Of a stretch of DNA of 32,371 nt, positions 1,259-27,876 are shown piece by piece; position 1 is the first letter of the stretch; each line of letters starts with the position of its first letter. The stretch lies in NCBI GenBank assembly GCA_028714955.1, contig JAQTLK010000017.1, positions 1 through 32,371 on the forward strand, read 5' to 3'. Position numbers and translations under genes: made by a program. The notes beneath the pieces were generated by a model, which did not search any database, was not told where the DNA came from, and worked only from the letters and a program-made list of their open reading frames with translations. This DNA is from Sulfuricella sp. Its GTDB lineage: Bacteria > Pseudomonadota > Gammaproteobacteria > Burkholderiales > Sulfuricellaceae.

Positions 1259-4200
1259 GTGTCCCGCACCACTGACCTTCGCAACCTGATCCTCAAGGCC
1301 AAGCACGCCTACTACTACAGCGGCGAGCCTATTATGAGCGATGCTGAGTACGACGCGCTTGAGGACGAACTGCGCCTGCTCGCACCGGACGATCCCGTAC
1401 TCGCCATCGTCGGCGCACCAGTGCCGGCCGACAGTATGCTGACCAAGGCACGCCACTCGATCCCGATGGGCAGCCAGAGCAAGGTAAATTCAGAAGACGA
1501 ATTCCGTACCTGGTGCGTGAAGAACGACATCGAGGTTCTGCACGCCAGCCTGAAGGGCGACGGTGCCAGCGCAGCCGCGTATTACACCAACGGTCGCCTG
1601 GTGCAGGCCATCTCGCGGGGTGACGGCAGCGTGGGGGAGGACATTACCGCCAACGCACTGCGCTTCAAGGGACTGCCAGCCTGGGCCGGTGCAGAGGCCG
1701 GGGGCTTTAGTGGCGCGGTACGCTTCGAGGTAATCCTGACTGTCGAGGACTGGACCCGGATCGATCCTGCGCGCAGCAAGAACCCGCGTAATGCCGGCGC
1801 CGGCATCATGGGCCGGAAGAATGGCCACCAGTCTGATTACCTGACCATCTACGCCTTCGATCTGGATGAGACATGCGATGGCCGTTCGGTGGAATTTGCT
1901 ACCGAGACTGACAAGGCGATGCGTCTGACGGAACTCGGCTTCAACGTAATCCCGCACACACGCTGCGAGAATGCAGACCAAGCTATTGGCTATTTCCAGC
2001 AAATTGCGACGACCCGCGAATCACTCCCATTCTGGATCGATGGCGTCGTAATGAAAATTGATGAAATCCCAAAGCAGCGCGAGCTTGGCGTCACCGGTGG
2101 TCGACCCAAGGGACAGATGGCGTGGAAATTCGATTCCGTCGGCGTCGAAACCGTGCTTGAAGGCGTCGTCGTCAGCGGTGGTCACACTGGTGGGCTATAC
2201 CCCACCGCGCAACTGCACCCAGTCGAGATCGGCGGCACGACAGTGAGCAACGCATCGCTGGCGAACTACGACGAAATCTCGCGCCTCGACGTGGCGATCG
2301 GTGACTCGGTCTGGGTCGTCAAGGCCAACGACATCATTCCGAAGATCATCCGCGTCACCCAGCGCCCCGAAACCCGTACACCCATTCAAGTGCCGACTGC
2401 GTGCCCGTTCTGCGGTGGCGACGTTGGGCGGCGTCAAATTAGTGGCGGTGGGGACGGCGTGATTATCGAATGCCGCAATGCCGAATGTCCGAAGAAATCC
2501 AGCGGCAAGATCCGCCGCTGGATCGCCAGCCTGGATATTCTTGGCATCGGCGATGCTGTGCGGGAGGCGATGATCGATCGTTTCGCGTTGGAGGACGCAG
2601 CCGACCTCTACACGCTGCGTGACCGGGAGGCCGAACTCGCCAATCTCGTGACCAACACCGACAAGGACCTTACACTTGGCGCGAAGCGCACAACCACTAT
2701 CCTGGATGCTATAGACGCCACACGCACCCTGAAATTGAGCCAGTTTCTCGGATCACTCGGCATCGACCATCTCGGCAAACGCCGTGTCGAACTCATGATT
2801 GCCTCTGCCGATGGGTCACTGGATACCTTGGATGACTGGCGATCAGGTCGTCTGCGCGACCCTGCCTTCGCGGAAAAGGCCGGCGTACCCAACGTTGCAG
2901 GGCAGATTCAGGACGCCATCGATGCCATGAGCCAGGTCATTGACAAATTGTTCGCCAACGGTGTGGTTGTACTGCCGCCCGAAAGAGACATTCCTGTATC
3001 CGAAGCGGAGACGCTCAAGACTGTCTGCATTAGTGGCAAGCTACCCAGCGGCAAAAAGAAGGCCGACTATGCCGAACCGTTGCGCGCTGCCGGATATGGA
3101 CTGGTTGATGACGTGACCAAAGGTTTGAACTATCTCGTGCTCGCCGATCCAGACTCGACCAGCAGTAAGGCTGAGAAGGCAAGGAAGTTAGGGATTGAAG
3201 TGATTTCGGAAGAGCAGCTTGAGCAGTTGGTGAGCTCCAGCGCTCCAATCACGCCAGTTATCAAGCTGGCAGAATACAACACAAAGGAGCCAGAAGTGAA
3301 AAGAGAAGCCACTGATTCAAGTATTAACGGTCTGTTTCAGCGTTACGAGTATGTCGATGACAAATCCTCGAAGTTCTGGGAGATGAAGGTATCCGGCACA
3401 AGTGTCGAAGTTCGCTACGGCAAGATCGGTACCGCCGGTCAGTCACTGACAAAGGACTTCGACAACGACGAGGTCGCTCACAAACATGCAGAAAAACTGA
3501 TCGCGGAAAAGGTGAAGGGGGGCTATCTAGCTATTGCTGCTGTAAGCGAAGCGGAAAAGGCCTCGGTGGCGAAGGTCGATCCGGCTCCAAAGGCTCCCGA
3601 AGCAAGCAAAGTGACTCATCCATCCAAGTCGGCGGGTGTGGGTTCAACAAAGTCCGTCTGCATCAGTGGAAAACTGCCCAGCGGCAAGAAGAAGGCCGAT
3701 TACGCCGAGGTGTTGGTCGCTGCAGGATATTCGCTGGTTGACGATGTTTCCTCCGGATTGACCTATCTCGTGCTTGCTGATCTGGCATCGACAAGTGTCA
3801 AGGCGGAAAAGGCCAAGAAGCTGGGGATCGAGGTGATTTCGGAAGAACAGTTGGTGTCGATCATAGAAAAACTGCCTGCATCGAGTTCATTAGTGCGTAA
3901 CTCGACGCCAAACAAGAAGTCGCACTACAGCAAGGCAGAACCCTCAAAAAAAGTTGCTGGTCTAATCGCTCGTGCATTTGCAGCTAAACAGCGCGTCTTG
4001 GACTATCTGGATGCCCACCCCGAGTTCACTTCTGGAATCGAACAGATTCGTGGCTGCCTGAAGTTCGCTGAGGTGTCCTATGCGATGCTTGCGCAGAGCA
4101 TGCCGATGGATTCAATTGATAGAACGAAGAGCCTTTTTGTCGGCCCTCTGTTTGTATCTGCCAAATACCCTCATCCTGTTAACGCGGAGGGACATCGGAT

Positions 4201-4789
4201 GTTTCCAATACTGCAGCTTGACATGTCATGGATCAATGCTGCGTGTGGCAAAAGTTTTGAGCCATGCTTGCTTCAATTTTGGTGGGATGGCGGTATTCCG
4301 TGTACTGGCCATCTCAGAAAAATTCCTTTGAGTGAAGTAACGCAAAATGAATTGATTCCGATTGAGATTGAAGAATCTGTCCGTAACGATGGGTTGTTAG
4401 CTATCGACGAAGAATGGATCCCGAAGGGAAATGGGCTTGTTTATCAGGTAATTGATTGCGCTCCTGTTGGCGTAACTTGCCCAGGCACGGATAGTGCGAT
4501 AGACCGCCTATCTGATGATGATCACTTTGAGGATTTCGAAGAAGACATCTTGGAGGACTTGGGGTCATTTACAGGTTATTCATCCCTTTATGAGTCAACT
4601 CCGTCATCGAAGTTGCATCACATTGGATCGCTTTTCGGAAAATTTTACTCTTCACAAGTGGGGCCGGAGAGCTTTTATGATGATGGGTGTTTGTTGAGCA
4701 TGAGTTGGATGGGCGGATTTGGTGCCCTCATGTACGAACAGAACGCTGCTTCTGGAACAACTGATTTCAGATTTTATTTTGAGAGGTAA
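1259..4789 (+). CDS. NAD+-dependent DNA ligase fused to BRCT-WGR-BRCT and a DUF1963-like domain
   Basis: Joins nicked DNA using NAD+. The N-terminus has the NAD-binding Ia pattern (SDAEYDALEDEL) and the adenylation motif KGDG with the AMP-accepting lysine at residue 99. RGDGSVGEDIT, NPRNAGAG, IDGVVMKID and WKFD match later ligase motifs, so it looks active. An OB fold follows, then a four-cysteine zinc finger (C382, C385, C405, C410) and helix-hairpin-helix region. BRCT domains lie at about 585-661 and 798-871, with a WGR domain between (about 691-758). Residues about 958-1176 match the separate protein at 25693 and look like DUF1963. Usual LigA is about 670 residues; this has 1176. The GTG start has AAAGGA at 1248-1253, five bases upstream. 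The C-terminal part is visibly lower in GC than the core. It is probably an accessory ligase, not the housekeeping copy (inference). Confidence 0.93.
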   Translation: MSRTTDLRNLILKAKHAYYYSGEPIMSDAEYDALEDELRLLAPDDPVLAIVGAPVPADSMLTKARHSIPMGSQSKVNSEDEFRTWCVKNDIEVLHASLKGDGASAAAYYTNGRLVQAISRGDGSVGEDITANALRFKGLPAWAGAEAGGFSGAVRFEVILTVEDWTRIDPARSKNPRNAGAGIMGRKNGHQSDYLTIYAFDLDETCDGRSVEFATETDKAMRLTELGFNVIPHTRCENADQAIGYFQQIATTRESLPFWIDGVVMKIDEIPKQRELGVTGGRPKGQMAWKFDSVGVETVLEGVVVSGGHTGGLYPTAQLHPVEIGGTTVSNASLANYDEISRLDVAIGDSVWVVKANDIIPKIIRVTQRPETRTPIQVPTACPFCGGDVGRRQISGGGDGVIIECRNAECPKKSSGKIRRWIASLDILGIGDAVREAMIDRFALEDAADLYTLRDREAELANLVTNTDKDLTLGAKRTTTILDAIDATRTLKLSQFLGSLGIDHLGKRRVELMIASADGSLDTLDDWRSGRLRDPAFAEKAGVPNVAGQIQDAIDAMSQVIDKLFANGVVVLPPERDIPVSEAETLKTVCISGKLPSGKKKADYAEPLRAAGYGLVDDVTKGLNYLVLADPDSTSSKAEKARKLGIEVISEEQLEQLVSSSAPITPVIKLAEYNTKEPEVKREATDSSINGLFQRYEYVDDKSSKFWEMKVSGTSVEVRYGKIGTAGQSLTKDFDNDEVAHKHAEKLIAEKVKGGYLAIAAVSEAEKASVAKVDPAPKAPEASKVTHPSKSAGVGSTKSVCISGKLPSGKKKADYAEVLVAAGYSLVDDVSSGLTYLVLADLASTSVKAEKAKKLGIEVISEEQLVSIIEKLPASSSLVRNSTPNKKSHYSKAEPSKKVAGLIARAFAAKQRVLDYLDAHPEFTSGIEQIRGCLKFAEVSYAMLAQSMPMDSIDRTKSLFVGPLFVSAKYPHPVNAEGHRMFPILQLDMSWINAACGKSFEPCLLQFWWDGGIPCTGHLRKIPLSEVTQNELIPIEIEESVRNDGLLAIDEEWIPKGNGLVYQVIDCAPVGVTCPGTDSAIDRLSDDDHFEDFEEDILEDLGSFTGYSSLYESTPSSKLHHIGSLFGKFYSSQVGPESFYDDGCLLSMSWMGGFGALMYEQNAASGTTDFRFYFER
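3011..3870 (+). repeat. Duplicated BRCT-coding segments in the ligase gene
   Basis: The segments at about 3020-3235 and 3653-3868 encode nearly the same BRCT domain. Both contain CISGKLPSGKKKADYAE, the block LVDDV, then YLVLAD, and end with KLGIEVISEEQL. The bases also agree closely, for example both carry CCCAGCGGCAA and AAGAAGGCCGA. The WGR domain sits between the copies. This looks like a fairly recent internal duplication. Confidence 0.85.
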
Positions 4790-4963: not shown

Positions 4964-7900
4964 ATGATATTCGGACTATTCGGTGGGGACAAGAAGCGCG
5001 CAGCCGAGTTGTATGCGGCAGCGTCAAATGGCGATCTGCAAGGCGTACGTCAGGCGCTGGAAAAAGGCGCGGACATCAACGCACTCGACCCGAAATTCGC
5101 GGAAACAGCGCTGCATGTGGCAGTCGAGAAGTCACATACGGAGGTCGTTGAACTGCTGCTGGCGAAGGGCGCCAATCCAGACATTGTATCGAACCAACAC
5201 TTCACGCCGCTCATCATTGCAGCGGCAATGGGAGATGCTGCCTTGCCTATGGTCGAATTGCTGATCGCTGGCAAAGCCAATCCGTCCCTCGCTCCAACGA
5301 CTGGGCCAAACGCAGGCGGGGCGCCACTGCACATCGCCGCCAGCAAAGGTGCAAATGCCGTGCTTGATCGTCTGCTAAAAGCTGGCGCCCAACCGACCGT
5401 ACTACCGAACGGCTCGACATTGATGCACATGGCGGCGATCGGTGGGGATGCTGAAACCGTTGAGATCGTCTCCAAAGCGGGCATTTCGGTCGATACGCCC
5501 GACAGCCAGTCACGCACCCCACTGCATCTGACAGCAATTACTGGTAACAAGGCCGCAGCCGAAGGGTTCCTCAAACAAGGGGCTGCTCTGGAGAGTCGAG
5601 ACGGCGAGGATTGCACCCCGCTGATGCGCGCTGCGCTAAATAATCAGGCTGCGGTCGTTGCCGTGATGCTCAAAAGCGGTGCTAATCCAGACATCGTGTT
5701 CACCACCGGCGAATCCGTGCTTAGCCCTCTGTATGCTGCTGCGATCAATGGTTACGACGAGGTCGTCAAGCTTCTGCTAGATGCTGGCACCCCGGTAGCA
5801 AAGAAAGTCGGCGGACTCCCATCGGTGGTTGATATGGCCCAGGAAGCTGGCCACCAGGCTACCGTTGCTTTGCTCAAAGAATCCATTCGGCTGGGCAAGA
5901 CTGCCGCAGACGCTGTCAAAGCAGAGAAAAAAGCCGGAAAGCTGCAGTCCGATCTGTCCGCTGCGATTCAAGCACTCGACGGAGGAGAGATACGCCACCT
6001 CGCGGGCGACAAGCTGTTCAAACATCTACCTTTGGACTTGCAGCTATTGGTTCAGTCTATTCTTGGTGATGCCAATCAGATCAAGAAGCTCATTGCTGCG
6101 GGTGCCAACCCCACGACACGATTCCAGGAACTGTTTGAGGGATTGCATCCGCTTTACGCCGCAGTCAGTTTGTCTCGAGACATTGCTACCGTTGAGGCTC
6201 TCCTGGATGGAGGTGCCGATCTGGAACTGCCCTGTCACGACAGCGGCACAGCCTTGATGCTGGCGGTAAAGGAAGGTCAGGGCGACATTACCCAACTGTT
6301 ACTGGCACGTGGGGCAAAGGGTAACGTAGGGGACAAGAGTGGATTGACCGCCTTGATGCTCGCGGCAAGAAAGGGAGATCAGCCATTGGTCGATGCCCTT
6401 CTGGCATCTGGTGCTGAAATCAATGCCACTTACCCCGAAAATGGTTTGGGAGCGTTTGGCTTCGCCCTCGACCAACAGCATACAGACCTGGCCAAGCATC
6501 TGCTCGATAAGGGGGCTAAGCCAGACTTTGGCAACGTCGATACGCTGCCATTGGCGGTAGTGGAACACGGGGATCTGGCACTCATTCAAGCCATCGAAGC
6601 CCGTGGCGGCTCTATCATCCGTGATGACATGAAGGCGAGAGTCGCTTTTGTTGCTGCGCGAAACAAGGATGGTGAGGTTCTGGACTATGTGCTGAACCAC
6701 GGCGCCGATCTGAATTTCGACAACGATTTCAACTACACCCCGTTGATCCTCGCATCGCTCAGCAATCACCCGGAACTGGTGAAGCGCTATCTGGAACGGG
6801 GCGATGACGCTAATTCAAGGGATGTCGACCAGGAGACAGCGCTTTCACTCGCCATCGAAAAAGACCATCGTGAAGTGATTACATTACTGCGCCAGCATGG
6901 GGCGGAGGAACACGATTACCCAGGGCTTTCAGATGAAAAAACCATGCTTGCGGCGGCGACCGATGGTGCCCTTGGAACTATCCTCAAGCTGCGCGACAAA
7001 GGCATTTCCATCAATACTGAGGATGCCGCTGGAAACACTCCGCTCATTCTTGCTGCGAAGGGTGGCCACCTCGGTGTCGTCAGATCCCTGTATCACTTGG
7101 GCGCGGACATCAATCACCGTAACCATGCTGGAATTTCGGCGACCAAGCAGGCTCAGGAACTGGATCAGCAGTTGATTCTCACCACCATGAAGGAATTTGT
7201 TGCAGAAGATGCATTCGAAGGCGAACTCAAAAACTTGTCCGGGATGATTGGTGGTCTTTTTGATATTGGCGATACGATGTTTGGTCGCATGTCCCATCCC
7301 TATAAGGAACACCCACCCTATGACAATCCGTCGGAAGATGAAGAAGATGATTCTGCTGAAGAGAATGAATTAGATGAAGAAATCAGCGAAAAGCTGGATC
7401 AGCTTGAAGAATTGCTTGGCAGAAAGAATGTCGCTGAAAAACTGACGCAGGAGCAAATGGAAGCGCTGCGGGAGAAAATCGAATCGATCCGGTCTGGAGA
7501 TACCGCCTCGAATCTGGCCGAAGAAATGGAAGAGCTGGAACAATTGATAGAGCTGTTTGGCTCCATCCCTGAAGAAGATGAGGTGTTGCCACCGATTTTT
7601 GCCGCAACTGCCGAGGGAGACATCAAGGCTTTCCGACGCCTGATCAAATCTGGTGAGGACATATACTCCATTCTCCCAGATGGAACCACTCTGCTGATAA
7701 CGGCGACAGAGCATGGGCAGGAGAACATTGTTGCTGAACTGATTAAGAGCGAAGTGGACGTCAACCAGGTCAGGGAAGATAGTTTTTCAGCCTTGCTGAT
7801 TGCTTGTTTTGTCGGACATGAGGGCATTGTCCAAGCTCTGCTCAAGGGGGGCGCAGATGTAAATGCGCTTTATTCAATCGGAACTGGACATGGCGAAGTT

Positions 7901-10555
7901 GTGGGATGCTCTGCACTCTATATTGCCGCGCAACGTGGCCACGTTAATATTTGCCAGCAACTACTGAAGAAGGGGGCAAACATTGATGCCATGAATGCCA
8001 TTGGCTACACCCCCTTGATGGCAGCCATCAAGTCGGGCCATGAAGATGTCGCCATCCTTCTGCTCAAGGCCGGTGCCAACCCTGACCCCGAAGTGGTCGT
8101 CACGGCCGATATTGGCGGCATTGTCAGCCTTACCCCATTGACGCTAGCTGCGTCGAATGAAATTACCGGCATCGTTGGTGAGTTATTGAAGCGCAAGGTC
8201 AATGTGGACAAGTCCAGTGGAGATGGCTGGACGGCACTGAAATATGCTGCCAAAGAAGGTAATATCGAGATAGTCAAAATGCTGCTGAAGGCTGGGGCTT
8301 CGGTAGATATTGCAGACCATGATGGCTGGACACCACTGATGAATGCCGCAGGAGAAGGACATGCGGAGGTTGTGACCCTGCTTTTGAAGCATGGCGCGAA
8401 CCCCAATTGCAGAACCCGCAATGAAGATCCGGCTGAAGCTGATCGCACACCACTCATGGACGCTGCGATCAATGGTTCTGATGACATCGTAAAGGCTTTA
8501 CTCAAAGCTGGCGCAGACACTAACCTGATCAGCGGGAGCGGCTGCACGGCCTTATGCGATGCCGTATTGCGCCGGCATGTCAGCACCACCAAATTGTTAT
8601 TAACTGCCGGAGCCGATCCCAACCTTTATTCCGGCGACAGTCTTCCTGTCATTGCTGCAGCAGCGCTGGGGTCGGAAGAGCTTGGTTTGCCCCCGTCACC
8701 ACAAATCGTTTCATTGCTTCTAAAGCACAAGGCAAACCCCGACGTTAATATTTCGGGCGTATCGCTTCGTTCTGCCGTCAAGAAGCAAGGCGATAAAAAA
8801 ATTATTGATTTGCTTAACCCGCACCTGGGAGAGCCTGAAACTGAAGATCATGATCAGATTTCTGGTGAGCAACTTGTTGATGCCGTCTTATCTGGAGATA
8901 CAGAATTACTAAAAGACCTCCTTGAGGGGGGCGCCGATCCTGATGGGAAATATGAAGGTGTAACCGCCCTCTTTTATGCTTGTAGTGCGGGGGCCGAAGA
9001 GGCTATTTCTCTATTGCTTAGCTACAAAGCCAGCCCAAATGTTGCGAACCAGTTTGGGGTTTCCGCACTGCATCTTGCAGCCATGAACCGTGTAGGAATG
9101 GAAAAGCAGGTACAAGAAAATATTACTCATTACCTGATTGATGCCGGCGCCAACGTGAACTCCCGTAGTGCCTTCGGCCATTTCCCATACGATTCCGCAG
9201 TTATTTACGGATATTTGGAGCTTGCACGTTTCTTTGTTGGAGAAATGAATGCCCTATCCCCACAAATCAATCATCAGGACGATACTGGCCGCACAGTTCT
9301 GTTGTCTGCTGTGCTGGAAAATGATGTTCAGCGAGTCCGCGATTATCTCGCACAAGGTGTTGATGTTAATCGAAGAGATTTGGATGGACAGTCAGCCTTG
9401 TCACTAGCTGTTGAAAATGGCCTTGATGATATAGCAGTCGTATTGAGAGCCGCGGGCGCAGAATCTATAGATTTCAGCGGATTGGAACCCGAACAAGCCA
9501 TGCTTAAGGCAGCCAAGTATGGTGGGACCGGCACGATTCTGGATCTGTTGGAAAAATGCGATTCTCTTGAAGTTACGGATGACGTCGGCAAAACTCCAAT
9601 CATTCTTGCCGCAGAAAATGGCCAAATACCAACGATTAGCGTTTTATTACATAAGGGCGCTTCCATTAATCATCGCAACGATGAGGGGAATTCCGCATAT
9701 CAGGTTGCGGAAGCCACAAACAAGAAATCCGTAATGCGATATTTAGCCAAAATGGGCGCAGAAGATGCCGATCCCGACTTGATTGATGATGGATTACTTG
9801 AAGTTGATAGTCTTGGTTCCGTGACGGGAGAAGCTTTGATGGAAACGGCCATCTTAGGTGATACCCAAAGAACTATGACATTGATAGCCGCTGGTGCTGA
9901 TGTCAACTATGTTGATGACGATGGCCGATCTATATTGATGAGCACAGTTTCGATGCTTGTGGATGGAACGATGAGTCGCCGTTACCTTCGCAACATTGAG
10001 CAAGTGGTAGATTTGTTGCTGACACATGGCGCCAGCCCCAACATTGGGAATGTGCCCCCTCTCGTGCCACCTCTAATGCTTGCAGCCGCGTTCGGGAAGC
10101 TACACCTGGTCAATACCATGATTCGTCATGGCGCCGAATTGGACAAGACTCTTGAGGATGGTTCAACTGCGCTGTGGGTTTCTCTAACGAGGGGTGAGGA
10201 TGCAACCAGTGCGAATGAAGAATGTGCAGTTGCATTAATTAATGCTGGGGCCGATTTGTCGGCCAAATATGAGGATGGAGCAACAATCCTCTCAGCTGCG
10301 GCAGAAAGCGGATTCCTACCTGTTGTCAGAGCTATTCTTGAACGGCGATCGGAAGACATCAACTCACAAGATAAAAATGGAATTACCGCTCTTATGTCCG
10401 CAGCAAATGCAGGCCGCAGCAAGGATGTCGTGGAGATTTTGCTTGAATCTGGCGCTGATCCGGCGATTAAGGATTCGAATGGAGAAACAGCCGCTGACTA
10501 TGCGAATAAGAATGGACATAAAGAAATTGCCGCATTAATGCAGGCTGCGCCATAA
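4964..10555 (+). CDS. Giant ankyrin-repeat protein (1863 aa)
   Basis: Almost the whole protein is ankyrin repeats, the 33-residue helix-turn-helix units that bind partner proteins. By eye I count about 45-50 units of the type TPLxxAAxxGHxxVVxLLLxxGAxxN. There is no signal peptide or membrane segment, so it is probably cytoplasmic, and no catalytic domain is evident. Residues about 787-873 break the array with a very acidic stretch and a Glu/Leu/Lys-rich predicted coiled coil. Residues about 606-731 and 1457-1584 are related six-repeat modules sharing LSLA, LILAA and INHRN signatures, so part of the array arose by block duplication. The ATG has a strong GAGGAG at 4954-4959. It ends 66 bases before brxA, where BREX loci often carry a regulator. 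It may be a scaffold or sensor for the island (inference). Confidence 0.9.
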   Translation: MIFGLFGGDKKRAAELYAAASNGDLQGVRQALEKGADINALDPKFAETALHVAVEKSHTEVVELLLAKGANPDIVSNQHFTPLIIAAAMGDAALPMVELLIAGKANPSLAPTTGPNAGGAPLHIAASKGANAVLDRLLKAGAQPTVLPNGSTLMHMAAIGGDAETVEIVSKAGISVDTPDSQSRTPLHLTAITGNKAAAEGFLKQGAALESRDGEDCTPLMRAALNNQAAVVAVMLKSGANPDIVFTTGESVLSPLYAAAINGYDEVVKLLLDAGTPVAKKVGGLPSVVDMAQEAGHQATVALLKESIRLGKTAADAVKAEKKAGKLQSDLSAAIQALDGGEIRHLAGDKLFKHLPLDLQLLVQSILGDANQIKKLIAAGANPTTRFQELFEGLHPLYAAVSLSRDIATVEALLDGGADLELPCHDSGTALMLAVKEGQGDITQLLLARGAKGNVGDKSGLTALMLAARKGDQPLVDALLASGAEINATYPENGLGAFGFALDQQHTDLAKHLLDKGAKPDFGNVDTLPLAVVEHGDLALIQAIEARGGSIIRDDMKARVAFVAARNKDGEVLDYVLNHGADLNFDNDFNYTPLILASLSNHPELVKRYLERGDDANSRDVDQETALSLAIEKDHREVITLLRQHGAEEHDYPGLSDEKTMLAAATDGALGTILKLRDKGISINTEDAAGNTPLILAAKGGHLGVVRSLYHLGADINHRNHAGISATKQAQELDQQLILTTMKEFVAEDAFEGELKNLSGMIGGLFDIGDTMFGRMSHPYKEHPPYDNPSEDEEDDSAEENELDEEISEKLDQLEELLGRKNVAEKLTQEQMEALREKIESIRSGDTASNLAEEMEELEQLIELFGSIPEEDEVLPPIFAATAEGDIKAFRRLIKSGEDIYSILPDGTTLLITATEHGQENIVAELIKSEVDVNQVREDSFSALLIACFVGHEGIVQALLKGGADVNALYSIGTGHGEVVGCSALYIAAQRGHVNICQQLLKKGANIDAMNAIGYTPLMAAIKSGHEDVAILLLKAGANPDPEVVVTADIGGIVSLTPLTLAASNEITGIVGELLKRKVNVDKSSGDGWTALKYAAKEGNIEIVKMLLKAGASVDIADHDGWTPLMNAAGEGHAEVVTLLLKHGANPNCRTRNEDPAEADRTPLMDAAINGSDDIVKALLKAGADTNLISGSGCTALCDAVLRRHVSTTKLLLTAGADPNLYSGDSLPVIAAAALGSEELGLPPSPQIVSLLLKHKANPDVNISGVSLRSAVKKQGDKKIIDLLNPHLGEPETEDHDQISGEQLVDAVLSGDTELLKDLLEGGADPDGKYEGVTALFYACSAGAEEAISLLLSYKASPNVANQFGVSALHLAAMNRVGMEKQVQENITHYLIDAGANVNSRSAFGHFPYDSAVIYGYLELARFFVGEMNALSPQINHQDDTGRTVLLSAVLENDVQRVRDYLAQGVDVNRRDLDGQSALSLAVENGLDDIAVVLRAAGAESIDFSGLEPEQAMLKAAKYGGTGTILDLLEKCDSLEVTDDVGKTPIILAAENGQIPTISVLLHKGASINHRNDEGNSAYQVAEATNKKSVMRYLAKMGAEDADPDLIDDGLLEVDSLGSVTGEALMETAILGDTQRTMTLIAAGADVNYVDDDGRSILMSTVSMLVDGTMSRRYLRNIEQVVDLLLTHGASPNIGNVPPLVPPLMLAAAFGKLHLVNTMIRHGAELDKTLEDGSTALWVSLTRGEDATSANEECAVALINAGADLSAKYEDGATILSAAAESGFLPVVRAILERRSEDINSQDKNGITALMSAANAGRSKDVVEILLESGADPAIKDSNGETAADYANKNGHKEIAALMQAAP

Positions 10556-10621
10556 AATGCACAATAAAGCCGTGAATACGACTATTACTTACATTTAAGT
10601 CATAAACCGAAACCAAATTTG

Positions 10622-11215
10622 ATGAATATCTACAATGCGGAAATATCCGCTGGTTCTCTTCTGCCTTTGGAAAGCAGGCGTGTGGCAGCTTTGCTACTGA
10701 CACACCCCGACGAGAATCAGTGGCTGCAGGCACTGAACGTGGATAATATTTTACAAAAGAAGAACCCGGCGACAGCCCGACGCCAAGCACGTCTTATCCG
10801 CAACCGACTGGAGACATTGAATGAAGAGGCATGGACGTTGATCGCAAATGGCGAGCAAGAGGTTGCAATCCAACTTTTATTGGCAGCGGCCATCAAGCAC
10901 AGCAGAATGCTCCGAGATTTCCTTCATGATATTTATGCCCAGCAATTGCGCCGACTTGAACACGCCCTGAATCATCATCACTGGGAAGGCTTCCTGACTG
11001 AATGCATCCACCGTGATGCCCAAGTTGCTGACTGGGCAGCTTCGACCAAGGAAAAACTTTTTCAAGTGATCCTCCGGATTCTTGCGGAGGCCAAATATCT
11101 GGACTCAACCAGGAAAATGAATCTCACCCCACCCATGCTGCATCCAACAGTGATCTCATATTTGAAGCGAAATAACGAAACTCAGGTACTGGTGGTAATG
11201 GAGCATGCTAAATGA
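10622..11215 (+). CDS. brxA: BREX protein BrxA (DUF1819)
   Basis: Small helical BREX core protein of the DUF1819 family; related BrxA proteins bind DNA and are needed for full phage protection. The family pattern is visible: LESRRVAALLL near the N-terminus, then LQKKNPATARRQARLIRNRL, and a C-terminal basic segment. The length of 197 residues fits the family. I chose ATG 10622 over the TTG directly before it at 10619; neither has a clear Shine-Dalgarno sequence. The stop overlaps the brxB start (ATGA at 11212-11215), so translation is probably coupled. This is the first gene of the BREX core, and its promoter may lie in the 66-base gap after the ankyrin gene or further upstream. Confidence 0.93.
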   Translation: MNIYNAEISAGSLLPLESRRVAALLLTHPDENQWLQALNVDNILQKKNPATARRQARLIRNRLETLNEEAWTLIANGEQEVAIQLLLAAAIKHSRMLRDFLHDIYAQQLRRLEHALNHHHWEGFLTECIHRDAQVADWAASTKEKLFQVILRILAEAKYLDSTRKMNLTPPMLHPTVISYLKRNNETQVLVVMEHAK

Positions 11216-11790
11216 GCCAAACCTTTGAGGAACGACTCAACCAGATACTTCCCAAGCTGACTTCCCCTGAGTTCCTGAATAACCAGGGGCTTGGCAATGA
11301 GATTGGGTTCTGGATTTTTGACTATCCGCCTGAACGTGAACTAGACATGCGTGATTTCCTTGATGGAAGCATCATGCCAGCCCTCGCCAAGCACCAACCT
11401 CCAGTACGTGCGGTCAAGATTGATTTATTCGATCTGGTCATCAGCCAGCTTGAAGATCGTAAGCTTCTGGATAAAGCCATCGAGATGCAGCGAACTCAAG
11501 GCGATGCCAAAGCTTTGGAATCGTTAAGGCGCGTTCTGAAGGAAGACAAACTGGCTGAACGATTGGTTGCAGAATTGGATATGGCCAATATCGACCTGAT
11601 GATTTTGTCCGGGGTCGGGGCCGTATACCCCATGCTGAGAACGCATACACTGCTTTCGGCACTGCATCCACTCATGAAAGACACCCCATTGCTCATGATG
11701 TATCCGGGCAAGTATGACGGATACTCACTACGGCTCTTCAACAAGCTGGCAGAAGATCATTACTACCGCGCTTTCCGGCTCGTTCCATAA
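11212..11790 (+). CDS. brxB: BREX protein BrxB (DUF1788)
   Basis: Second gene of the type 1 BREX core, 192 residues, DUF1788 family. Family features seen are the N-terminal FEERLNQIL, the central pattern VKIDLFDLVISQLE, and the C-terminal half LMILSGVGAVYPMLRTHTLL followed by PLLMMYPGKYDG and a late YYRAFRLVP. Its biochemical role is not well defined; it is thought to work with BrxC and PglZ. It overlaps brxA by four bases and is followed by brxC after 29 bases. Length and motifs look intact. Confidence 0.93.
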   Translation: MSQTFEERLNQILPKLTSPEFLNNQGLGNEIGFWIFDYPPERELDMRDFLDGSIMPALAKHQPPVRAVKIDLFDLVISQLEDRKLLDKAIEMQRTQGDAKALESLRRVLKEDKLAERLVAELDMANIDLMILSGVGAVYPMLRTHTLLSALHPLMKDTPLLMMYPGKYDGYSLRLFNKLAEDHYYRAFRLVP

Positions 11791-11819
11791 ATAAAATACA
11801 AGTATTGGACTATACGACC

Positions 11820-14800
11820 ATGAAAATCAGGGAGCTGTTTGTCAAGCCGATCGACCGGCCAATCAATGGTGTCATCAAGGCAGATCAGCGTGATGCGGAG
11901 AGCATCTGGCAAGAACTGGATGAATACGTTGTCACCAAGCAGTTGACCGATTATTTCCGGCGCTTTTTTGATGCCTATCATGCCGCCGCCGACAACCCCA
12001 GGGATCCGGTACTGTCTGCACGCATGGGGGTGTGGGTTTCGGGTTTCTTTGGTTCCGGCAAATCACACTTCATCAAGATCCTGTCTTATCTGCTGGAAAA
12101 TATTGAGGCGGTCTCCCCGGTAAATGGACAGGCCAAGCGTGCCGTCGAGTTCTTTGATGAGCACAAGATCAAGGATTCCATGCTGCTGGCCGACATACAG
12201 CGCGCAGTCAAGGGCAGCACGGATGTCATCCTTTTCAATATCGATGCCAAGGCAGACAGCAAATCCGACCGCGATGTCATCCTGCAAGTATTCCTTCGTG
12301 TATTCAATGAAAAGCTGGGTTACTCAGGCGACGCGCCACACATCGCGGAGATGGAGCGCTATCTGGTTACCAAGGGTGTCTACGAGGTTTTCCAGGAGGC
12401 CTTCAAAACAAAGCATGGCTCAACCTGGGAACAGGAGCGGGATGCGGTCGACTTTCTGCGTGATGATGTAGTTCATGCGCTGGCCAAGGCGCTTGGCATG
12501 ACAGAGGAATCTGCCGGTCGCTGGTTCGATAATTCCCGTGACGATTACCGCATCAACATCGAAAGCCTGGCCAAGATGATCCGGGAATACCTGGACACCA
12601 AGCCGGCGGGCCATCGCATTATTTTTCTTGTCGATGAAGTTGGTCAATTTATTGGCGACAACACCCAGCTTATGCTGACCCTGCAGACCATCACTGAGCA
12701 ACTGGGTACGCTTTGTCAGGGTCGCGCCTGGGTAATCGTAACCAGTCAGGAAGACATTGATGCCGCCCTCGGTGAAGCCAATAAGGCAAAATCCCAGGAT
12801 TTCTCAAAGATTCAGGGGCGTTTCCATACCCGGTTATCGTTGGCCAGCTCCAATACCGATGAGGTGATCGGCGAACGTCTGCTATCAAAAACAGAGGCCG
12901 CCCATGTGGCCTTGCGAGATTGCTTTGCCCAGAAGGGCGACATCATCAACAACCAGCTCGCCTTCGTCGGCAATACGGTATCGATGCGAGGCTTCAAGGA
13001 TGCTGCCGAGTTCGTGGCTTATTACCCATTCGCGCCCTATCAGTTCCAGTTGTTGCAGAAGATATTCGAGTCCATCCGCAAGGTAGGCGCCACCGGCAAA
13101 CACTTGTCCAAGGGCGAACGTTCCCTGCTGGACGCCTTCCAGTCCGCAGCAAAATGCAATGCAGATCGTGGCGTCGATGCGCTGGTGCCGTTGTATGATT
13201 TTTATCCATCCATAGAAAGCTTCATCGATACCAACGCCAAGTTATCTATTGATCAAGCCCCGACCAATCCGCTGCTGGAAGCCTATGACGTCAACCTGCT
13301 CAAGGCCATGTTCCTGATCCGCTACATCGGCGACATCCTCAAGCCCAACGTCGATAATCTGGCGACCCTGTGCGTGGACCAAATCGATGCTGACAAGTTG
13401 GCCCTCAAGCGGAAAATCCAGGAAAGCCTGACACGTCTTGAGCAACAGCGCCTCGTCAGCCGTAACGGTGATCTCTGGTATTTCCTGACCAACGAAGAAC
13501 GCGATGTGGCACGAGAGATCGGCCATGTGGAAGTCTCCGCTGCCGAGAAAGCCCGTCTGTTATGCGAACTGTTGTTCGATGACATTCTTGAACAGAAGAC
13601 CAAGGTCAGGCACCGCGACACCAAGGCTGACTATGAAATCAACCGTCTTCTGGACGGTGCGCCGTGGAAAAATGCAAACCATGAACTGACACTGGAAATT
13701 CTTTCTCCGCTTGGCGATGACTATGAGCGTTTTAATGAAGCTCAATGCATTCTGCGCAGCAGTGAAGGAATTGGGCGGGCGCTCATACGTCTGGCGGAAG
13801 GAAACAGGTTCGACATCGAACTGACGCTCTACCAGCAGATCGAGAAATACATCGACAGCCCTAAAGCCAGTAATGCATCGGCATCGCTGAAGAACATCCT
13901 GGTCAACCGCAAGGATGAGAACCGGGAGCGCCGCACCCGGTTGAGGGAGCAACTCAGCACCTTGCTGGTGACGGGCGATTTTTACGCGCTAGGCCAGAAG
14001 CCACAAATCAAGGCAGCCGCGCCTTCTACGCTGATTGATGACCTGGTCAATTACCTGATCTCCAATACCTACACCAAGTTGCCTTACCTCAAGCACCGGT
14101 ATGCCGATTCCATCGCCGAGATACGAGCGGTGCTGAACGCCGATGACATTGGCCAGCATTCATTAGCCTTGAGTGGCGACGAAGGCAATCCGCTTGCCAT
14201 CAAGGAAATGCGCGATTATCTACAGATCAAGGCCAGCACCGAGCGTGTATTGCTTTCCGACGTAGTAGATCGATTTACAGGGATTCCGTGGGGCTGGAAA
14301 CCGGAATGGGAAGTGGTTCTTCTCATCGCGCGTTTGTTCATGGCTGGCGAAATCAAGCTCATGCTGGAAGGCTCGGATCTCGATCCCAAGAGTGCTGTTG
14401 ATCCCTTGACCAAGTCTGTGCGCTTCAAGCAGATTTCCATCCTCAAGCGCAAAACCCCACCAGCAGATGCCCTCAAGCGAGCCAGGGATCTGCACAAAGA
14501 CCTGTTCTCAAATCTGGCGAGGGAGGACGAAGATGGCCTGGTCGCCGATTTCCGTGCAAATCTGGACAATTGGCAAACAGAACTAAAGAGCTTTACCCAT
14601 GCTGCCGCGATGAAGCATTACCCCGGCAAGGACGTCATGGCGCAAGCAGTCAACCGCATCGCCAAGCAGATCGCCATTCGTGATTCCTTCGAGTTCATCG
14701 AAGCACTGCTGACTGGCAAGGATGACTGGCTCGATACCGCCGATGACATTCACGATCTGGTCAGTTTCTACAAAACCCAGATCAAGACATGGAGCCGTAT

Positions 14801-15437
14801 GCTCGAGGCTCTGGAAGGCTTTGCAGATAACCACGACGCCTTGATTAAAGACGCTAAGGCCGCCGCCGCTCTGTTGGATCTGGAAGCCATACGTGATAAC
14901 CCAGCGCCCTATGGTCAAATCAGCCGTATCGAACCCCTGATTGCTACAGTGGAAGGGGTCAACGATGGAATTGCCCAGGATAGGCGCGAAAAAGCTCTGC
15001 TTTCCATCGACAACAAAATTGCCGAGGTCCAGAAGAAACTTGATGCCGTCCAGGCAGAAGCCAGCCTGCGCAACAAAGCACTCATCAAGCTTCAGGAACT
15101 TAAGACCAAGGTGGCGGGGCTATCCAGCATCCCCATGATTTTCTTCTGTCAGGATCAAGCCGGGGATGCGCTCGACGAGGCCATGGCCATCATCGAATCT
15201 GCTCTTCACAAGCCAACGCCAGCAGCACAAGAACCGGGAACTATATCCAAACCGCTCACCACTGGCACTGGCAGCACCGCGACTGTCGCGCCAAAACCCG
15301 CAAAGGTAATCCGGGCAGCTGACCTCGCAACCCAGTCCTACCTGGAAACCGAGGCTGAGGTGGAGGACTACATCGCCAAGCTCAAAGCCGAGTTGATGAC
15401 GGCCATTAGGGCCGGCCAACGTGCCCGCATCCAATAA
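11820..15437 (+). CDS. brxC: BREX large ATPase BrxC (DUF499-like/PglY type)
   Basis: Large P-loop ATPase of the BREX core, 1205 residues. The N-terminus MKIRELFVKPIDRPINGVIKAD is typical of BrxC. Walker A GFFGSGKS lies at residues 75-82 with lysine 81; Walker B IIFLVDEVG contains aspartate 272. The long remainder is mostly helical, ending in a Pro/Ala/Thr-rich linker and a final helical segment. The open frame reaches back to TTG 11805, but ATG 11820 matches the usual BrxC N-terminus and I use it. No strong ribosome site is seen, so it may be translated by coupling with brxB 29 bases upstream. BrxC is one of the most conserved BREX parts and is thought to use ATP to drive assembly or target recognition. 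Confidence 0.95.
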   Translation: MKIRELFVKPIDRPINGVIKADQRDAESIWQELDEYVVTKQLTDYFRRFFDAYHAAADNPRDPVLSARMGVWVSGFFGSGKSHFIKILSYLLENIEAVSPVNGQAKRAVEFFDEHKIKDSMLLADIQRAVKGSTDVILFNIDAKADSKSDRDVILQVFLRVFNEKLGYSGDAPHIAEMERYLVTKGVYEVFQEAFKTKHGSTWEQERDAVDFLRDDVVHALAKALGMTEESAGRWFDNSRDDYRINIESLAKMIREYLDTKPAGHRIIFLVDEVGQFIGDNTQLMLTLQTITEQLGTLCQGRAWVIVTSQEDIDAALGEANKAKSQDFSKIQGRFHTRLSLASSNTDEVIGERLLSKTEAAHVALRDCFAQKGDIINNQLAFVGNTVSMRGFKDAAEFVAYYPFAPYQFQLLQKIFESIRKVGATGKHLSKGERSLLDAFQSAAKCNADRGVDALVPLYDFYPSIESFIDTNAKLSIDQAPTNPLLEAYDVNLLKAMFLIRYIGDILKPNVDNLATLCVDQIDADKLALKRKIQESLTRLEQQRLVSRNGDLWYFLTNEERDVAREIGHVEVSAAEKARLLCELLFDDILEQKTKVRHRDTKADYEINRLLDGAPWKNANHELTLEILSPLGDDYERFNEAQCILRSSEGIGRALIRLAEGNRFDIELTLYQQIEKYIDSPKASNASASLKNILVNRKDENRERRTRLREQLSTLLVTGDFYALGQKPQIKAAAPSTLIDDLVNYLISNTYTKLPYLKHRYADSIAEIRAVLNADDIGQHSLALSGDEGNPLAIKEMRDYLQIKASTERVLLSDVVDRFTGIPWGWKPEWEVVLLIARLFMAGEIKLMLEGSDLDPKSAVDPLTKSVRFKQISILKRKTPPADALKRARDLHKDLFSNLAREDEDGLVADFRANLDNWQTELKSFTHAAAMKHYPGKDVMAQAVNRIAKQIAIRDSFEFIEALLTGKDDWLDTADDIHDLVSFYKTQIKTWSRMLEALEGFADNHDALIKDAKAAAALLDLEAIRDNPAPYGQISRIEPLIATVEGVNDGIAQDRREKALLSIDNKIAEVQKKLDAVQAEASLRNKALIKLQELKTKVAGLSSIPMIFFCQDQAGDALDEAMAIIESALHKPTPAAQEPGTISKPLTTGTGSTATVAPKPAKVIRAADLATQSYLETEAEVEDYIAKLKAELMTAIRAGQRARIQ

Positions 15438-15446
15438 GAAGGCGTC

Positions 15447-18400
15447 ATGAATAAAGCCAAACTCAAAAGCTACGCCCCGCAAGCCCGCAAGGACTTCATC
15501 GCTGCCGTCACCACTCGTGCCAACCAGCTCGGCCTGTCCGAGCAAGGCGGCATGCTGGAAATTGCCCCGGCGGAAAAGGGCGGCGATGTCGTCATCATCG
15601 CCGGCCAGCCTTGGCCAGCCAAGGTGCAGGGCCAGCGCGAACAGCTCATCAAACGCATCCAGAAAGAGGGCTTCGCCCACACCATGGATGCGGTGGCCTA
15701 CACCTGGTTCAACCGCTTCGCCGCGCTGCGTTACATGGAGATCCATGACTACCTCGGCCACGGCCACCGGGCGCTCTCCAGCCGCGAAGGCGGTTTGCCG
15801 GAAATTCTCACCCATGCCGCCGACCTTGCCCAAAGTGGCGATCTGCCGGGGTTGAACGTCGCTAAAGTCACCGAACTCAAGCTCGCCGGCAACAAGGATG
15901 GCGAACTCTACAAAATGCTGCTGGTCGCCCAGTGCAACGCGCTCTCCCGCGCCATGCCTTTCCTGTTCGAGCGCATCGACGACGAAACCGAACTGCTGCT
16001 GCCCGACAACCTGCTGCGCACCGATTCCATCATCGCCAAGGTGGTGGCAGCCATCCCCGAGGAAGACTGGCAGCAAGTGGAAATCATCGGCTGGCTCTAC
16101 CAGTTCTACATCAGCGAGAAAAAGGATGAAGTGATCGGCAAGGTGGTCAAGAGCGAGGACATCCCCGCCGCAACCCAACTTTTCACCCCCAACTGGATCG
16201 TGCAATACCTGGTGCAGAACAGTGTCGGTCGCCTGTGGCTGATGGCAAATCCCGCCTCGACCTTGAAAAGCCAGTGGCCATATTACATTCAACCCGCTGA
16301 GCAGACGCCCGAAGTACAGGCACAACTCGATGCGCTGATTCAAACTAGGATGAGCGAGGATGGCGGCAGCCTCAACCCCGAAACCATCACCATGCTCGAC
16401 CCGGCCTGTGGCAGCGGCCACATTCTGGTGGTGGCCTATGACGTGCTCAAGGCCATCTACCTGGAGCGCGGCTACCAACCCAGAGCCATCCCGCGCCTGA
16501 TACTGGAAAAGAACCTCTACGGCCTGGACATTGATGACCGCGCTGCGCAACTGGCGGGCTTCGCGTTACTGATGAAGGCTCGCGCCGACGATAGGCGGCT
16601 GCTCGACAACCCGCCCAAGCTCAACGTGCTGGCATTGCAGGAGAGCAAGGGGCTGAACGCAGATGAAATCATTCAAGCCTTGCAATCTGTCGCCGTTGGT
16701 CGGGTTAGCCCGCAGGGCGTAACCCGACAATCCAGCGTCGAATTCGGTGACACCGACCTTTACCCCGGCACGCTTCCGCAAATGAGCCTCGGCGAAACGG
16801 CGGCGAAAACGTCGGGTTACGCTGCGCTAACCCGACCTACGATTGCCGTCCTGATCGACATCTTCGTCCATGCCAAGACCTTCGGCTCGCTGATCCAGAT
16901 TACACAGGATCTGAATGTAAAATTGGCGGCGCTAGCCGAGGACTTGCAGCAGGCCATCCAGAGCGGTGACCTCTATGCCCAATCGGCGGCGCAGGACCTG
17001 TTGCCACTGGTGAGGCAAGCGTTGATGCTGGGAATGAAGTTCGACGCGGTGGTGGCGAATCCGCCATATATGGGCAGCGGTGGGATGAACGCCATAGTGA
17101 AGAAGTTCGCCGCAACCCATTTCCCGGATGGCAAGAGCGACCTCTTCGCCTGCTTCATAGAGCGGGGCTACACCCTGACCAGAACTGGTGGTTTCAGTGC
17201 GATGGTTACCATGCAGAGTTGGATGTTCCTGTCGTCGTTCCAGAGCATGCGGGAGCGCATGCTGCAATCAAAAACGATCCTCTCGATGACCCAGATTGGC
17301 TTCAATAGTTTTCCGGCCCTCAATTCAAAATTCGCACTAGCGACAGCGTTCTCACTTTGGAACAACTATCTACCGGGCTACAGGGGCACCTTTGTAAACC
17401 TGAATGATGCGGGTCAGTCAGAAGACAAGAGAGCGGTCTTTCTTAGAAGAGATCCCGCCAATCAGTTTGAAGTCTCGGCTAGTGAATTCTGTAAAATACC
17501 CGGGGGGCCAATCACTTATTGGATTTCTCCAAGCTTCCTCCGGATGTTCGTGGAGAATGAGTCGCTTGGCGGCGTTGTCGAAGCGAAGCAAGGAATCGCT
17601 ACAGCTGACAACGGGCGATTTGTGAGGCTTTGGCCAGAGGTAGCATTAAGCAATATTGGGTTCGGCATCTCATCCAGCGAGAAGGCGAAAGATACTAGTT
17701 TTCGTTGGTTCCCATACAATAAGGGCGGAGAGTATCGGAAGTGGTACGGAAATCATCAGTGGATACTCGACTGGGAGAATGGCGGCCGCGAACTGGTCGC
17801 TTTCCCAAAATCCGTTGTAAGAAACACGGATTACCAATTCAGATCTAGCATCTCGTGGTCTGATGTGGCGTTCACAAATGCGTTTCGGTGGTATCCAGAG
17901 GGGTTCTTGTTCGATTCGACAGGACACTCGGCGTTCCCGAATGAGCGATGTACGAAAGAGGCTCTAATCGCCTTCTGCAACAACAAATTTGTACGAGAAG
18001 CTGCCCAAACTCTAAACCCGACGATGCATTTCCACGTTGGGTACTTTAATATTTTGCCTGCCGCGCTCTCTAAACAGAAAGAGGTCAGCCAGATCGCGTG
18101 CCGATTAATTGATTTGGCATGTGTCGATTGGAACGCCTACGAGCGCTCTTGGAACTTCCAATCCATCCCTCTCCTGACCGTACCCCAAGATCCAAGAACC
18201 ACCCTCGAATCCAGCTATACAGATTGGGTCACAAGTAACCACGGAACCGTCGTAGAAATGAAGCGTCTCGAAGAGGAAAACAACCGCCTCTTCATCGACG
18301 CCTACGGCCTGGGCGAAGAGCTCACCCCCGAAGTCCCCATCGAGCAGATCACCCTCACTGTGAACCCCGCCTACCGCTATGGCGGCAAGCTCACGGTCGA

Positions 18401-19175
18401 GGAGCAGTGGACGCGCTTCCGCCAGGACACCATGGGGGAGCTGGTCTCCTACGCCATCGGCTGCATGATGGGGCGCTACAGCCTGGACGAGCCCGGCCTG
18501 ATCTACGCCCATGCCGGCAACATTGGCTTTGACCCAACCCGCTATTCGACTTTCCCTGCCGACGCCGACGGCATCGTGCCGCTCACCGACGAACTCTGGT
18601 TCGAGGACGATGCCGCCAACCATATCCGCGAATTCCTGCTGGCCACGTGGGGTGCCGAGACACTGGATGAGAACATGGCCTGGCTGGCGGAAAGCCTGGG
18701 CAAGAAGGGCAACGAAACCCCGGAAGAGACCATCCGTCGCTACCTCGCCGGCAGCTTCTTCAAAAATCACCTGCAAACCTACAAGAAGCGCCCCATCTAC
18801 TGGCTTTTCTCCAGCGGCAAACAGGGCGCTTTCCAGGCTTTGGTCTATCTGCACCGCTACCACGAAGGCACCTTGGCTCGAATGCGCAGCGAATACGTCG
18901 TGCCCCTCACTGGCAAAATCCAGTCCCGCATCGAGATGCTGACCAAGGATGCCGAAGCCGCTACCTCAACCGCCACCCGCAACAAGCTCAACAAGGAAAT
19001 CGAAGCGCTGCGCAAGAAACACGTCGAACTATTGTCCTACGATGAAAAGCTCCGTCACTACGCTGACATGCGCATCCAATTGGATTTGGATGATGGGGTG
19101 AAGGTGAATTACGGCAAGTTCGGGGATTTGCTGGTGGAAGTGAAGGCGGTGACGGGAGGGGCAAGTGATGACTAA
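15447..19175 (+). CDS. pglX: BREX site-specific adenine-N6 DNA methyltransferase PglX
   Basis: Modifies host DNA at the BREX motif with S-adenosylmethionine and also takes part in phage restriction. Methylase motif I DPACGSG starts at residue 318 and the catalytic NPPY is residues 538-541, as in N6-adenine methylases. The 1242-residue length is normal for PglX. ATG 15447 has AAGAAGG just upstream and follows brxC by nine bases. Two oddities: about residues 418-464 are encoded by two in-frame REP-like palindromes and the segment between them, and about residues 611-928, the expected target-recognition region, is encoded by DNA of clearly lower GC than both flanks. No frameshift is seen, so the gene should be functional. 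Its end overlaps the next gene by eight bases. Confidence 0.96.
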   Translation: MNKAKLKSYAPQARKDFIAAVTTRANQLGLSEQGGMLEIAPAEKGGDVVIIAGQPWPAKVQGQREQLIKRIQKEGFAHTMDAVAYTWFNRFAALRYMEIHDYLGHGHRALSSREGGLPEILTHAADLAQSGDLPGLNVAKVTELKLAGNKDGELYKMLLVAQCNALSRAMPFLFERIDDETELLLPDNLLRTDSIIAKVVAAIPEEDWQQVEIIGWLYQFYISEKKDEVIGKVVKSEDIPAATQLFTPNWIVQYLVQNSVGRLWLMANPASTLKSQWPYYIQPAEQTPEVQAQLDALIQTRMSEDGGSLNPETITMLDPACGSGHILVVAYDVLKAIYLERGYQPRAIPRLILEKNLYGLDIDDRAAQLAGFALLMKARADDRRLLDNPPKLNVLALQESKGLNADEIIQALQSVAVGRVSPQGVTRQSSVEFGDTDLYPGTLPQMSLGETAAKTSGYAALTRPTIAVLIDIFVHAKTFGSLIQITQDLNVKLAALAEDLQQAIQSGDLYAQSAAQDLLPLVRQALMLGMKFDAVVANPPYMGSGGMNAIVKKFAATHFPDGKSDLFACFIERGYTLTRTGGFSAMVTMQSWMFLSSFQSMRERMLQSKTILSMTQIGFNSFPALNSKFALATAFSLWNNYLPGYRGTFVNLNDAGQSEDKRAVFLRRDPANQFEVSASEFCKIPGGPITYWISPSFLRMFVENESLGGVVEAKQGIATADNGRFVRLWPEVALSNIGFGISSSEKAKDTSFRWFPYNKGGEYRKWYGNHQWILDWENGGRELVAFPKSVVRNTDYQFRSSISWSDVAFTNAFRWYPEGFLFDSTGHSAFPNERCTKEALIAFCNNKFVREAAQTLNPTMHFHVGYFNILPAALSKQKEVSQIACRLIDLACVDWNAYERSWNFQSIPLLTVPQDPRTTLESSYTDWVTSNHGTVVEMKRLEEENNRLFIDAYGLGEELTPEVPIEQITLTVNPAYRYGGKLTVEEQWTRFRQDTMGELVSYAIGCMMGRYSLDEPGLIYAHAGNIGFDPTRYSTFPADADGIVPLTDELWFEDDAANHIREFLLATWGAETLDENMAWLAESLGKKGNETPEETIRRYLAGSFFKNHLQTYKKRPIYWLFSSGKQGAFQALVYLHRYHEGTLARMRSEYVVPLTGKIQSRIEMLTKDAEAATSTATRNKLNKEIEALRKKHVELLSYDEKLRHYADMRIQLDLDDGVKVNYGKFGDLLVEVKAVTGGASDD
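16699..16836. repeat. Pair of REP-like palindromes inside pglX
   Basis: Both units have the same perfect 9-base arms, GTCGGGTTA and TAACCCGAC. Unit 1 is 16699-16728, with an inner GCCC/GGGC stem; unit 2 is 16811-16836. The spacer is 82 bases. The flanking tail (GG before unit 1, CC plus TACG after unit 2) shows that they face opposite ways, like a bacterial interspersed mosaic element. The span is 138 bases, a multiple of three, and contains no stop in the pglX frame. Confidence 0.85.
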
Positions 19176-19878
19176 CGTTTCTTTTACCCTGCCAAGCTGG
19201 AATGAGTGGCTGAAGGGCAGTTCGTTTGTGAGCGCAAAGATTGGGGACGCCGACGAGGGCAACATTCGGGACTATTTTTCTCGGGTTCACGCTGCAACTG
19301 AGGCTTTGTTAAGACAAATTCTTTTCGTTGGGTTCCGACTGAACCGCGTGACCTATGCAGACGCAAACAACTGGCTTTATCACAACGACATTACACCCGA
19401 TCGGCAAAAATATTCGGCCCTGATTAACATACTGTTCAAGGGACAACAAAAGTCGTGGGACGAGATCATTCAGTCGCAACAAGATCTAGGGGAGTTGTGG
19501 TCATTGTGGATTGACTATGCGAAGGTCATCAGGAACCATGTGTTGCACGGAATTCGATCACATGACGACCACGCACTTCAGACCGTTACTCTTATCAATA
19601 AGGCATTGATGATGAGCCTGGATAAGGCTTTCCTCCCCGTGGTTGGTGGGCACATTTCAGGTGCACTTACGGCGTTCAACCCTCGTTTACCCAGAGGAAC
19701 AAAAGGACTTGACATTGCAAAGCTGGCTGGTCTGAAAAAGCCAGGCAAACGACCGACGCCAGCCAAAGATGTACTCCAGCGAATGAAGGCAATCCGACTC
19801 TTTACGGCTGTCGAAGACTTGTCTCTACAGCGAGGCGAGAATGATGAGCACGTCAAAGGTGGGGGTGCGGATGACTGA
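19168..19878 (+). CDS. HEPN-like protein inserted in the BREX operon
   Basis: A 236-residue protein with no confident family name. Helical sequence around YFSRVHAATEALLRQIL followed by YAKVIRNHVLHG is the pattern of HEPN domains, whose R-x4-6-H motif forms the RNase site. Here R122 and H127 give R-x4-H exactly. HEPN proteins are often toxins or abortive-infection RNases; some are inactive structural proteins, so the function is a prediction. The ATG at 19168 has GGGAGGG at 19154-19160; a GTG at 19165 is less likely. It overlaps pglX by eight bases and the next gene by eight, so it is translated as part of the operon. The C-terminus (GGGADD) copies the end of PglX (GGASDD). It is not part of the standard BREX set. 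Confidence 0.7.
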   Translation: MTNVSFTLPSWNEWLKGSSFVSAKIGDADEGNIRDYFSRVHAATEALLRQILFVGFRLNRVTYADANNWLYHNDITPDRQKYSALINILFKGQQKSWDEIIQSQQDLGELWSLWIDYAKVIRNHVLHGIRSHDDHALQTVTLINKALMMSLDKAFLPVVGGHISGALTAFNPRLPRGTKGLDIAKLAGLKKPGKRPTPAKDVLQRMKAIRLFTAVEDLSLQRGENDEHVKGGGADD

Positions 19879-23535: not shown

Positions 23536-23543
23536 GGTAATGT

Positions 23544-27869: not shown

Positions 27870-27876
27870 GGCCATA

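Follow-up and report, generated by a model that had tools for sequence, protein, structure and literature searches.

We consider, with a rough probability of 0.55, that the gene at positions 1259-4789 of the window, the whole 32,371-nucleotide stretch of a metagenome-assembled genome (MAG) contig of Sulfuricella sp. analysed here, encodes an accessory second NAD+ DNA ligase with a core derived from a viral or mobile-element lineage and a tail extended by a WGR domain, a duplicated BRCT domain and a C-terminal domain (CTD). The window begins 1.26 kb before the gene, which is a single open reading frame of 1176 aa on the plus strand with zero internal stops. It has a GTG start with AGGA directly upstream, and the GTG aligns with the ATG of its 674-aa relative described below. 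The preliminary description of this DNA put an NAD+ ligase, a BRCT and a WGR in one reading frame nearly twice the length of LigA, and this is borne out by Pfam (WGR, E=1.4e-16) and by the length (1176 vs ~670 aa); the search with a profile for each domain, named there beforehand as the check, did find the WGR. Its layout held from the ligase through the BRCT to the WGR but overlooked a second BRCT and the CTD, and the real order is ligase-BRCT-WGR-BRCT-CTD. The parts of the gene are as follows.

1259..4789, plus strand: whole gene, NAD+ DNA ligase-BRCT1-WGR-BRCT2-CTD, 1176 aa (open reading frame; Pfam; NCBIfam LigA)
1439..2134, plus strand: adenylation (nucleotidyltransferase) domain, aa 61-292, with K99 in KGDG (1553-1555) (PF01653, DNA_ligase_aden, E=1.4e-39; catalytic columns)
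2147..2374, plus strand: OB-fold domain, aa 297-372 (PF03120, DNA_ligase_OB, E=3e-24)
2402..2488, plus strand: four-cysteine zinc finger, C382, C385, C405 and C410 (aligned to the E. coli LigA zinc cysteines)
3017..3238, plus strand: BRCT1, aa 587-660, the usual BRCT at the C-terminus of LigA (spanned by TIGR00575 and PDB LigA alignments; present in the WGR-less relative)
3350..3529, plus strand: WGR, aa 698-757, bacterial type, triad Y-G-K (PF05406)
3647..3862, plus strand: BRCT2, aa 797-868, duplicate of BRCT1 (PF00533; comparison with BRCT1)
3944..4789, plus strand: CTD, aa ~896-1176, ~280 aa, of no known family and lower GC3 (26% identity to the open reading frame at 25693-26547)

The identity of the protein as an NAD+ ligase is firm. 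The sequence features of the LigA type are found in it: the adenylation and OB domains, the KxDG lysine, the motif residues, the four-Cys zinc finger and the BRCT tail. The NCBI model for LigA (TIGR00575) is passed narrowly, with 448 bits vs a curated cut-off of 444, and the N-terminal Ia domain (Nlig-Ia) gave a weak Pfam match below the cut-off; the NMN-binding Ia residues Y22, D32, Y35 and D36 (E. coli numbering) are Y, D, Y and D in the window ligase. In the tail, Pfam found BRCT in two stretches (E=1.7e-11) and the WGR with 60.8 bits vs a cut-off of 22. When the protein was aligned with viral and bacterial ligases, the E. coli LigA columns Y22, D32, Y35, D36, K115, D117, G118, R136, E173, R200, R277, D285, K290, K314 and the four zinc cysteines were all intact. 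The window ligase has Ser at E. coli E113 and Gly at R208; Ser at position 113 occurs also in several viral ligases, and Glu in all bacterial LigA compared. E. coli H23 is replaced by Tyr, as in most ligases compared. In a structure comparison, the predicted core matches E. coli LigA bound to nicked DNA (2owo, E=7e-42). The earlier view of an apparently active NAD+ ligase is thus supported at the level of residues, with K99 in KxDG and nearly all checked catalytic columns intact, and the enzyme is predicted to be likely active.

The core appears from its sequence to belong to a viral or mobile-element NAD+ ligase lineage. In a tree, it pairs with its relative (100/100), and both group with 14 viral ligases and separately from the 8 bacterial LigA (96/87); because the viral sequences were picked for their likeness to the query and long branches occur among them, the tree does not fix a precise sister group. 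It also matches the phage ligase family phrog_3869 (E=2e-153). A separate, ordinary and intact LigA is encoded elsewhere in the host genome. The tree led us to reject that the window gene is a duplicate of the host ligA, and the tree and the separate LigA both speak against an orthologue of chromosomal LigA. A scan for exact peptides across 84,980 species, a method that misses divergent relatives, found a single close relative (74% identical), and whole-genome searches at E<=1e-60 found none in 399 genomes of the order or 369 of the class. Among the matches listed from plasmid and phage databases, none exceeded 32% identity. Viral scans gave no match for the full protein or for its NPRNAGAGIM stretch, and distant matches alone when the BRCT was used. 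Two IMG/VR contigs with common upstream genes stop inside a ligase whose start is 80-85% identical, and in both of them a large serine recombinase lies ~1.2 kb upstream. In one of these (L029), the recombinase (3357-4775) has a DUF2924 neighbour and the ligase start is 80% identical. This contig and that of the 674-aa relative (L020) also have in common a GC-rich imperfect palindrome of ~21 bp (GGCGCTGtCAGGACAGC), ~45 bp before the ligase ATG, which is perhaps an operator; it was not seen upstream of the window ligase.

The relative (L020, 11928-13952; 674 aa, 74% identical over aa 1-660) is encoded in a Rhodocyclaceae MAG (CAJQTY010000001). The smc-zipA-ligA order is the same as in the window's genome, and the chromosomal ligA of this MAG is split (L020, 9980-13952; L047, 7150-14205), breaking off inside the OB domain. 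The second half, which has the same orientation, lies at 3,422 kb of the contig, whose length is 3,459 kb, so that an insertion of ~55 kb or more separates the halves across the contig ends, assuming that these ends meet or lie close together. On the side of the ligA N-terminal half, the insertion begins with the gene of the relative. The genes on the other side encode proteins of 721, 667, 174 and 453 aa, of which two are integrase-like (PHROG, E=4e-6 and 8e-12), and a cobalamin cluster also lies between the halves. The insertion junctions read GACGTG and GATGTG. ligA is normally essential. A search of this genome turned up no further ligase OB domain, and the relative appears to be the sole complete NAD+ ligase detected there. 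As far as the quality of the MAG allows, this is the strongest evidence at hand for a working core. It is possible that an element broke ligA and brought its own ligase, and a divergent ligase of mobile DNA appears to stand in for the split ligA. We found no paper on islands inserted in ligA, and the first 1.26 kb of the window contain no ligA remnant upstream of the ligase.

With regard to the tail, BRCT1 is the ordinary end of a ligase, just past which the WGR-less relative stops. BRCT2 is 81% identical to BRCT1 in amino acids and 75% in nucleotides, with 56% at third codon positions, which suggests either a non-recent duplication whose protein was kept alike by selection or the joining of two related modules. 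A PADLOC match to PDC-S48 is confined to the BRCTs, and we found no paper naming this model. The preliminary description read BRCT followed by a PARP-like WGR as the order by which PARP1 recognizes breaks. This reading did not survive, since BRCT1 is the usual tail of NAD+ ligases, a second BRCT stands behind the WGR, and the WGR itself is of the bacterial type: its nearest structure is the bacterial protein 2ra8 (E=9e-13, vs E=0.55 for PARP3), and Y-G-K stands opposite the W-G-R of PARP3. In the full-length model, the WGR is predicted with middling confidence (pLDDT ~50). No Pfam match to the PARP catalytic (ADP-ribosyltransferase) domain or to PARP zinc fingers was found in the window ligase, and we rejected PARP homology because of these absences and the bacterial-type WGR. 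The PARP comparison is thus mostly misleading. We take Trp151 and Arg153 of PARP2 to be the W and R of the WGR triad. The PARP2 WGR binds and bridges 5'-phosphorylated breaks, where Trp151 contributes to holding the 5'-phosphorylated end and a neighbouring nucleotide is contacted by Arg153 (PMC8190142). Because the window WGR has neither of these two break-contacting residues, end binding may not carry over to it. Most other bacterial WGR domains compared here start their triad with Y, F or H and are carried on leucine-rich-repeat, helicase and other proteins; in genomes of the same class (L009, L010, L012, L016), we observed them on leucine-rich-repeat proteins, a DNA helicase and others. In Deinococcus, a WGR protein of unknown role is upregulated when the damage-response repressor DdrO is depleted (PMC8533742). 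Neither the open-access papers searched nor the sequence collections searched yielded another fusion of an NAD+ ligase with a WGR, and the combination of ligase, WGR, BRCT and CTD was found nowhere else in these searches. Such a tail was seen in a single protein, too few to show that the extension is conserved.

The CTD has no Pfam family and no credible relative in the PDB (best E=0.03), and its AlphaFold model is poor (pLDDT 40). DUF1963 was considered from a motif pattern seen by eye and rejected, as there was no Pfam match and no DUF1963 protein among 80 relatives. The CTD is homologous to the product of another gene in the window, at 25693-26547 (26% identity, E=2e-13), and the two represent an undescribed family of ~280 aa. 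Stand-alone relatives occur on Sphingomonadales plasmids (L050, L051) among defence-like genes; helicase, AAA ATPase, WYL and toxin-antitoxin genes lie close to one of them. GC3 is 0.70 for the ligase core but 0.46 for the CTD and 0.40 for the gene at 25693. The window ligase gene is a mosaic.

Downstream of the ligase, the window contains the following genes.

4964..10555, plus strand: ankyrin-repeat protein, 1863 aa, between the ligase and brxA (Pfam Ank_2, E=3e-197)
10619..25586, plus strand: type 1 BREX operon of brxA, brxB, brxC, pglX, a small open reading frame (19165-19878), a DUF1016-type nuclease (19841-20926; PDC-S02), pglZ and brxL (PADLOC models)
25693..26547, plus strand: stand-alone CTD homologue, between brxL and an SbcD-like gene (similarity to the ligase CTD)

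The small, unassigned open reading frame and the nuclease (PADLOC PDC-S02) occupy 19165-20926, between pglX and pglZ. Behind the BREX operon, at 26613-32369, are genes for an SbcD/YhaO-like exonuclease, a YhaN-like ATPase and ParB. By PADLOC, the type 1 BREX system is complete, and the ligase does stand beside a phage-defence system, in line with the preliminary description. The further proposal that it is aimed at breaks made during phage conflict rested on this one neighbourhood and is unsupported by the others. Six other loci with a related BrxA were found and five were read, the sixth being left out for having <1 kb upstream; in the flanks of these five (17-20 kb upstream in four loci, 18 kb on each side in one plasmid), the ligase, the ankyrin protein and the CTD family were all absent. 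The ligase-BREX link is therefore one case, and without recurrence in the flanks read at the five other BREX loci, a fixed BREX accessory gene is not supported. A role of the ligase in the BREX island or in defence is speculative.

Other explanations differ in what they make of these surroundings. It is possible, though rather doubtful, that the gene is cargo of a mobile element or a back-up ligase that lets the element survive its insertion into, or the loss of, the host ligA or serves replication and recombination of the element, to which the extra domains were added later and whose nearness to BREX is mere co-location in an island. The relative at the edge of the insertion splitting ligA, the 80% relative behind a serine recombinase, the viral lineage and the ligase-free BREX loci all speak for this. 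However, the host LigA is intact here, a single complete relative is known, and a tail that has been extended and kept open is needless for a mere spare. We regard as improbable that one protein performs end joining without Ku, in which the WGR and the two BRCTs would bridge 5'-phosphorylated ends by analogy with the PARP2 WGR and the ligase would seal them. Ku gave no match in the window's own genome, which is 91% complete, and if this idea were true, a Ku-free break-joining enzyme would be present in a phage-defence island of a genome without detected Ku.

Quite improbable, too, is a working part of the window BREX that seals nicks left where BREX or its nuclease has acted on host DNA: the ligase is on the same strand 5.8 kb upstream of brxA and the CTD family occurs on both sides of BREX, but the flanks of the five other loci are without the ligase and neither brxA nor brxB was seen in the stretches read around the Rhodocyclaceae relative. 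The MAG origin, the compositional step along the gene and the two similar BRCT copies could also indicate an artefact in which core and tail were misjoined. This is very improbable, as the frame is open through all modules and a homologue of the CTD is encoded elsewhere on the contig; moreover, the two BRCT copies share no identical stretch of more than 14 bp, a length insufficient to mislead an assembler. Least credible of all is a PARP-like DNA-damage signalling enzyme, which the shared BRCT and WGR alone would favour, against the missing ADP-ribosyltransferase and PARP zinc finger and the bacterial type of the WGR.

Under the preferred reading of an accessory ligase with an extended tail, the tail would have gained, in this strain, a WGR of the bacterial type, a second copy of the BRCT and a module common to another gene of the island. 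K99 would be adenylated from NAD+, and the core would close round a nick and seal it as LigA does. The WGR, possibly together with both BRCTs, may hold the enzyme at 5'-phosphorylated breaks or load it onto a partner, although DNA-end binding by this WGR is speculative and drawn by analogy. The protein may be a repair enzyme adapted to a special type of DNA end. Should its WGR guide the ligase to ends, it would offer a ready test, easily read out by enzyme assay, of what bacterial WGR domains bind.

Finally, the window ligase can be compared with known systems. The gene set on the ligA C-terminal side of the Rhodocyclaceae insertion recalls multi-recombinase elements of the Tn554 type (PMC3414803). 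Like the window protein, PARP1 has BRCT and WGR in one chain; the window protein differs from PARP1, PARP2 and PARP3 in lacking the ADP-ribosyltransferase and zinc fingers, in its Y-G-K triad, in the extra BRCT and in the ligase in front. Bacterial WGR proteins (MolR/DUF4132, leucine-rich-repeat and helicase proteins) have the same type of WGR (39-52% identity at the best matches), though none of those found is fused to a ligase. The Rhodocyclaceae relative ends after BRCT1 without WGR and CTD. Viral NAD+ ligases (PHROG 3869; IMG/VR L026 and kin) are the closest lineage outside this relative, with up to 36% identity and shared NPRNAxxGIMxRK and RPKGQxAWKF-type motifs; unlike the window ligase, those examined stop after the BRCT, and none has a WGR or CTD. 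E. coli LigA (2owo) has the same order of Ia, NTase, OB, Zn, HhH and BRCT, the same catalytic residues and the same core fold, whereas the window ligase is ~30% identical to it, falls on the branch of viral ligases and is longer by 500 residues. Moreover, its host has a LigA of its own.
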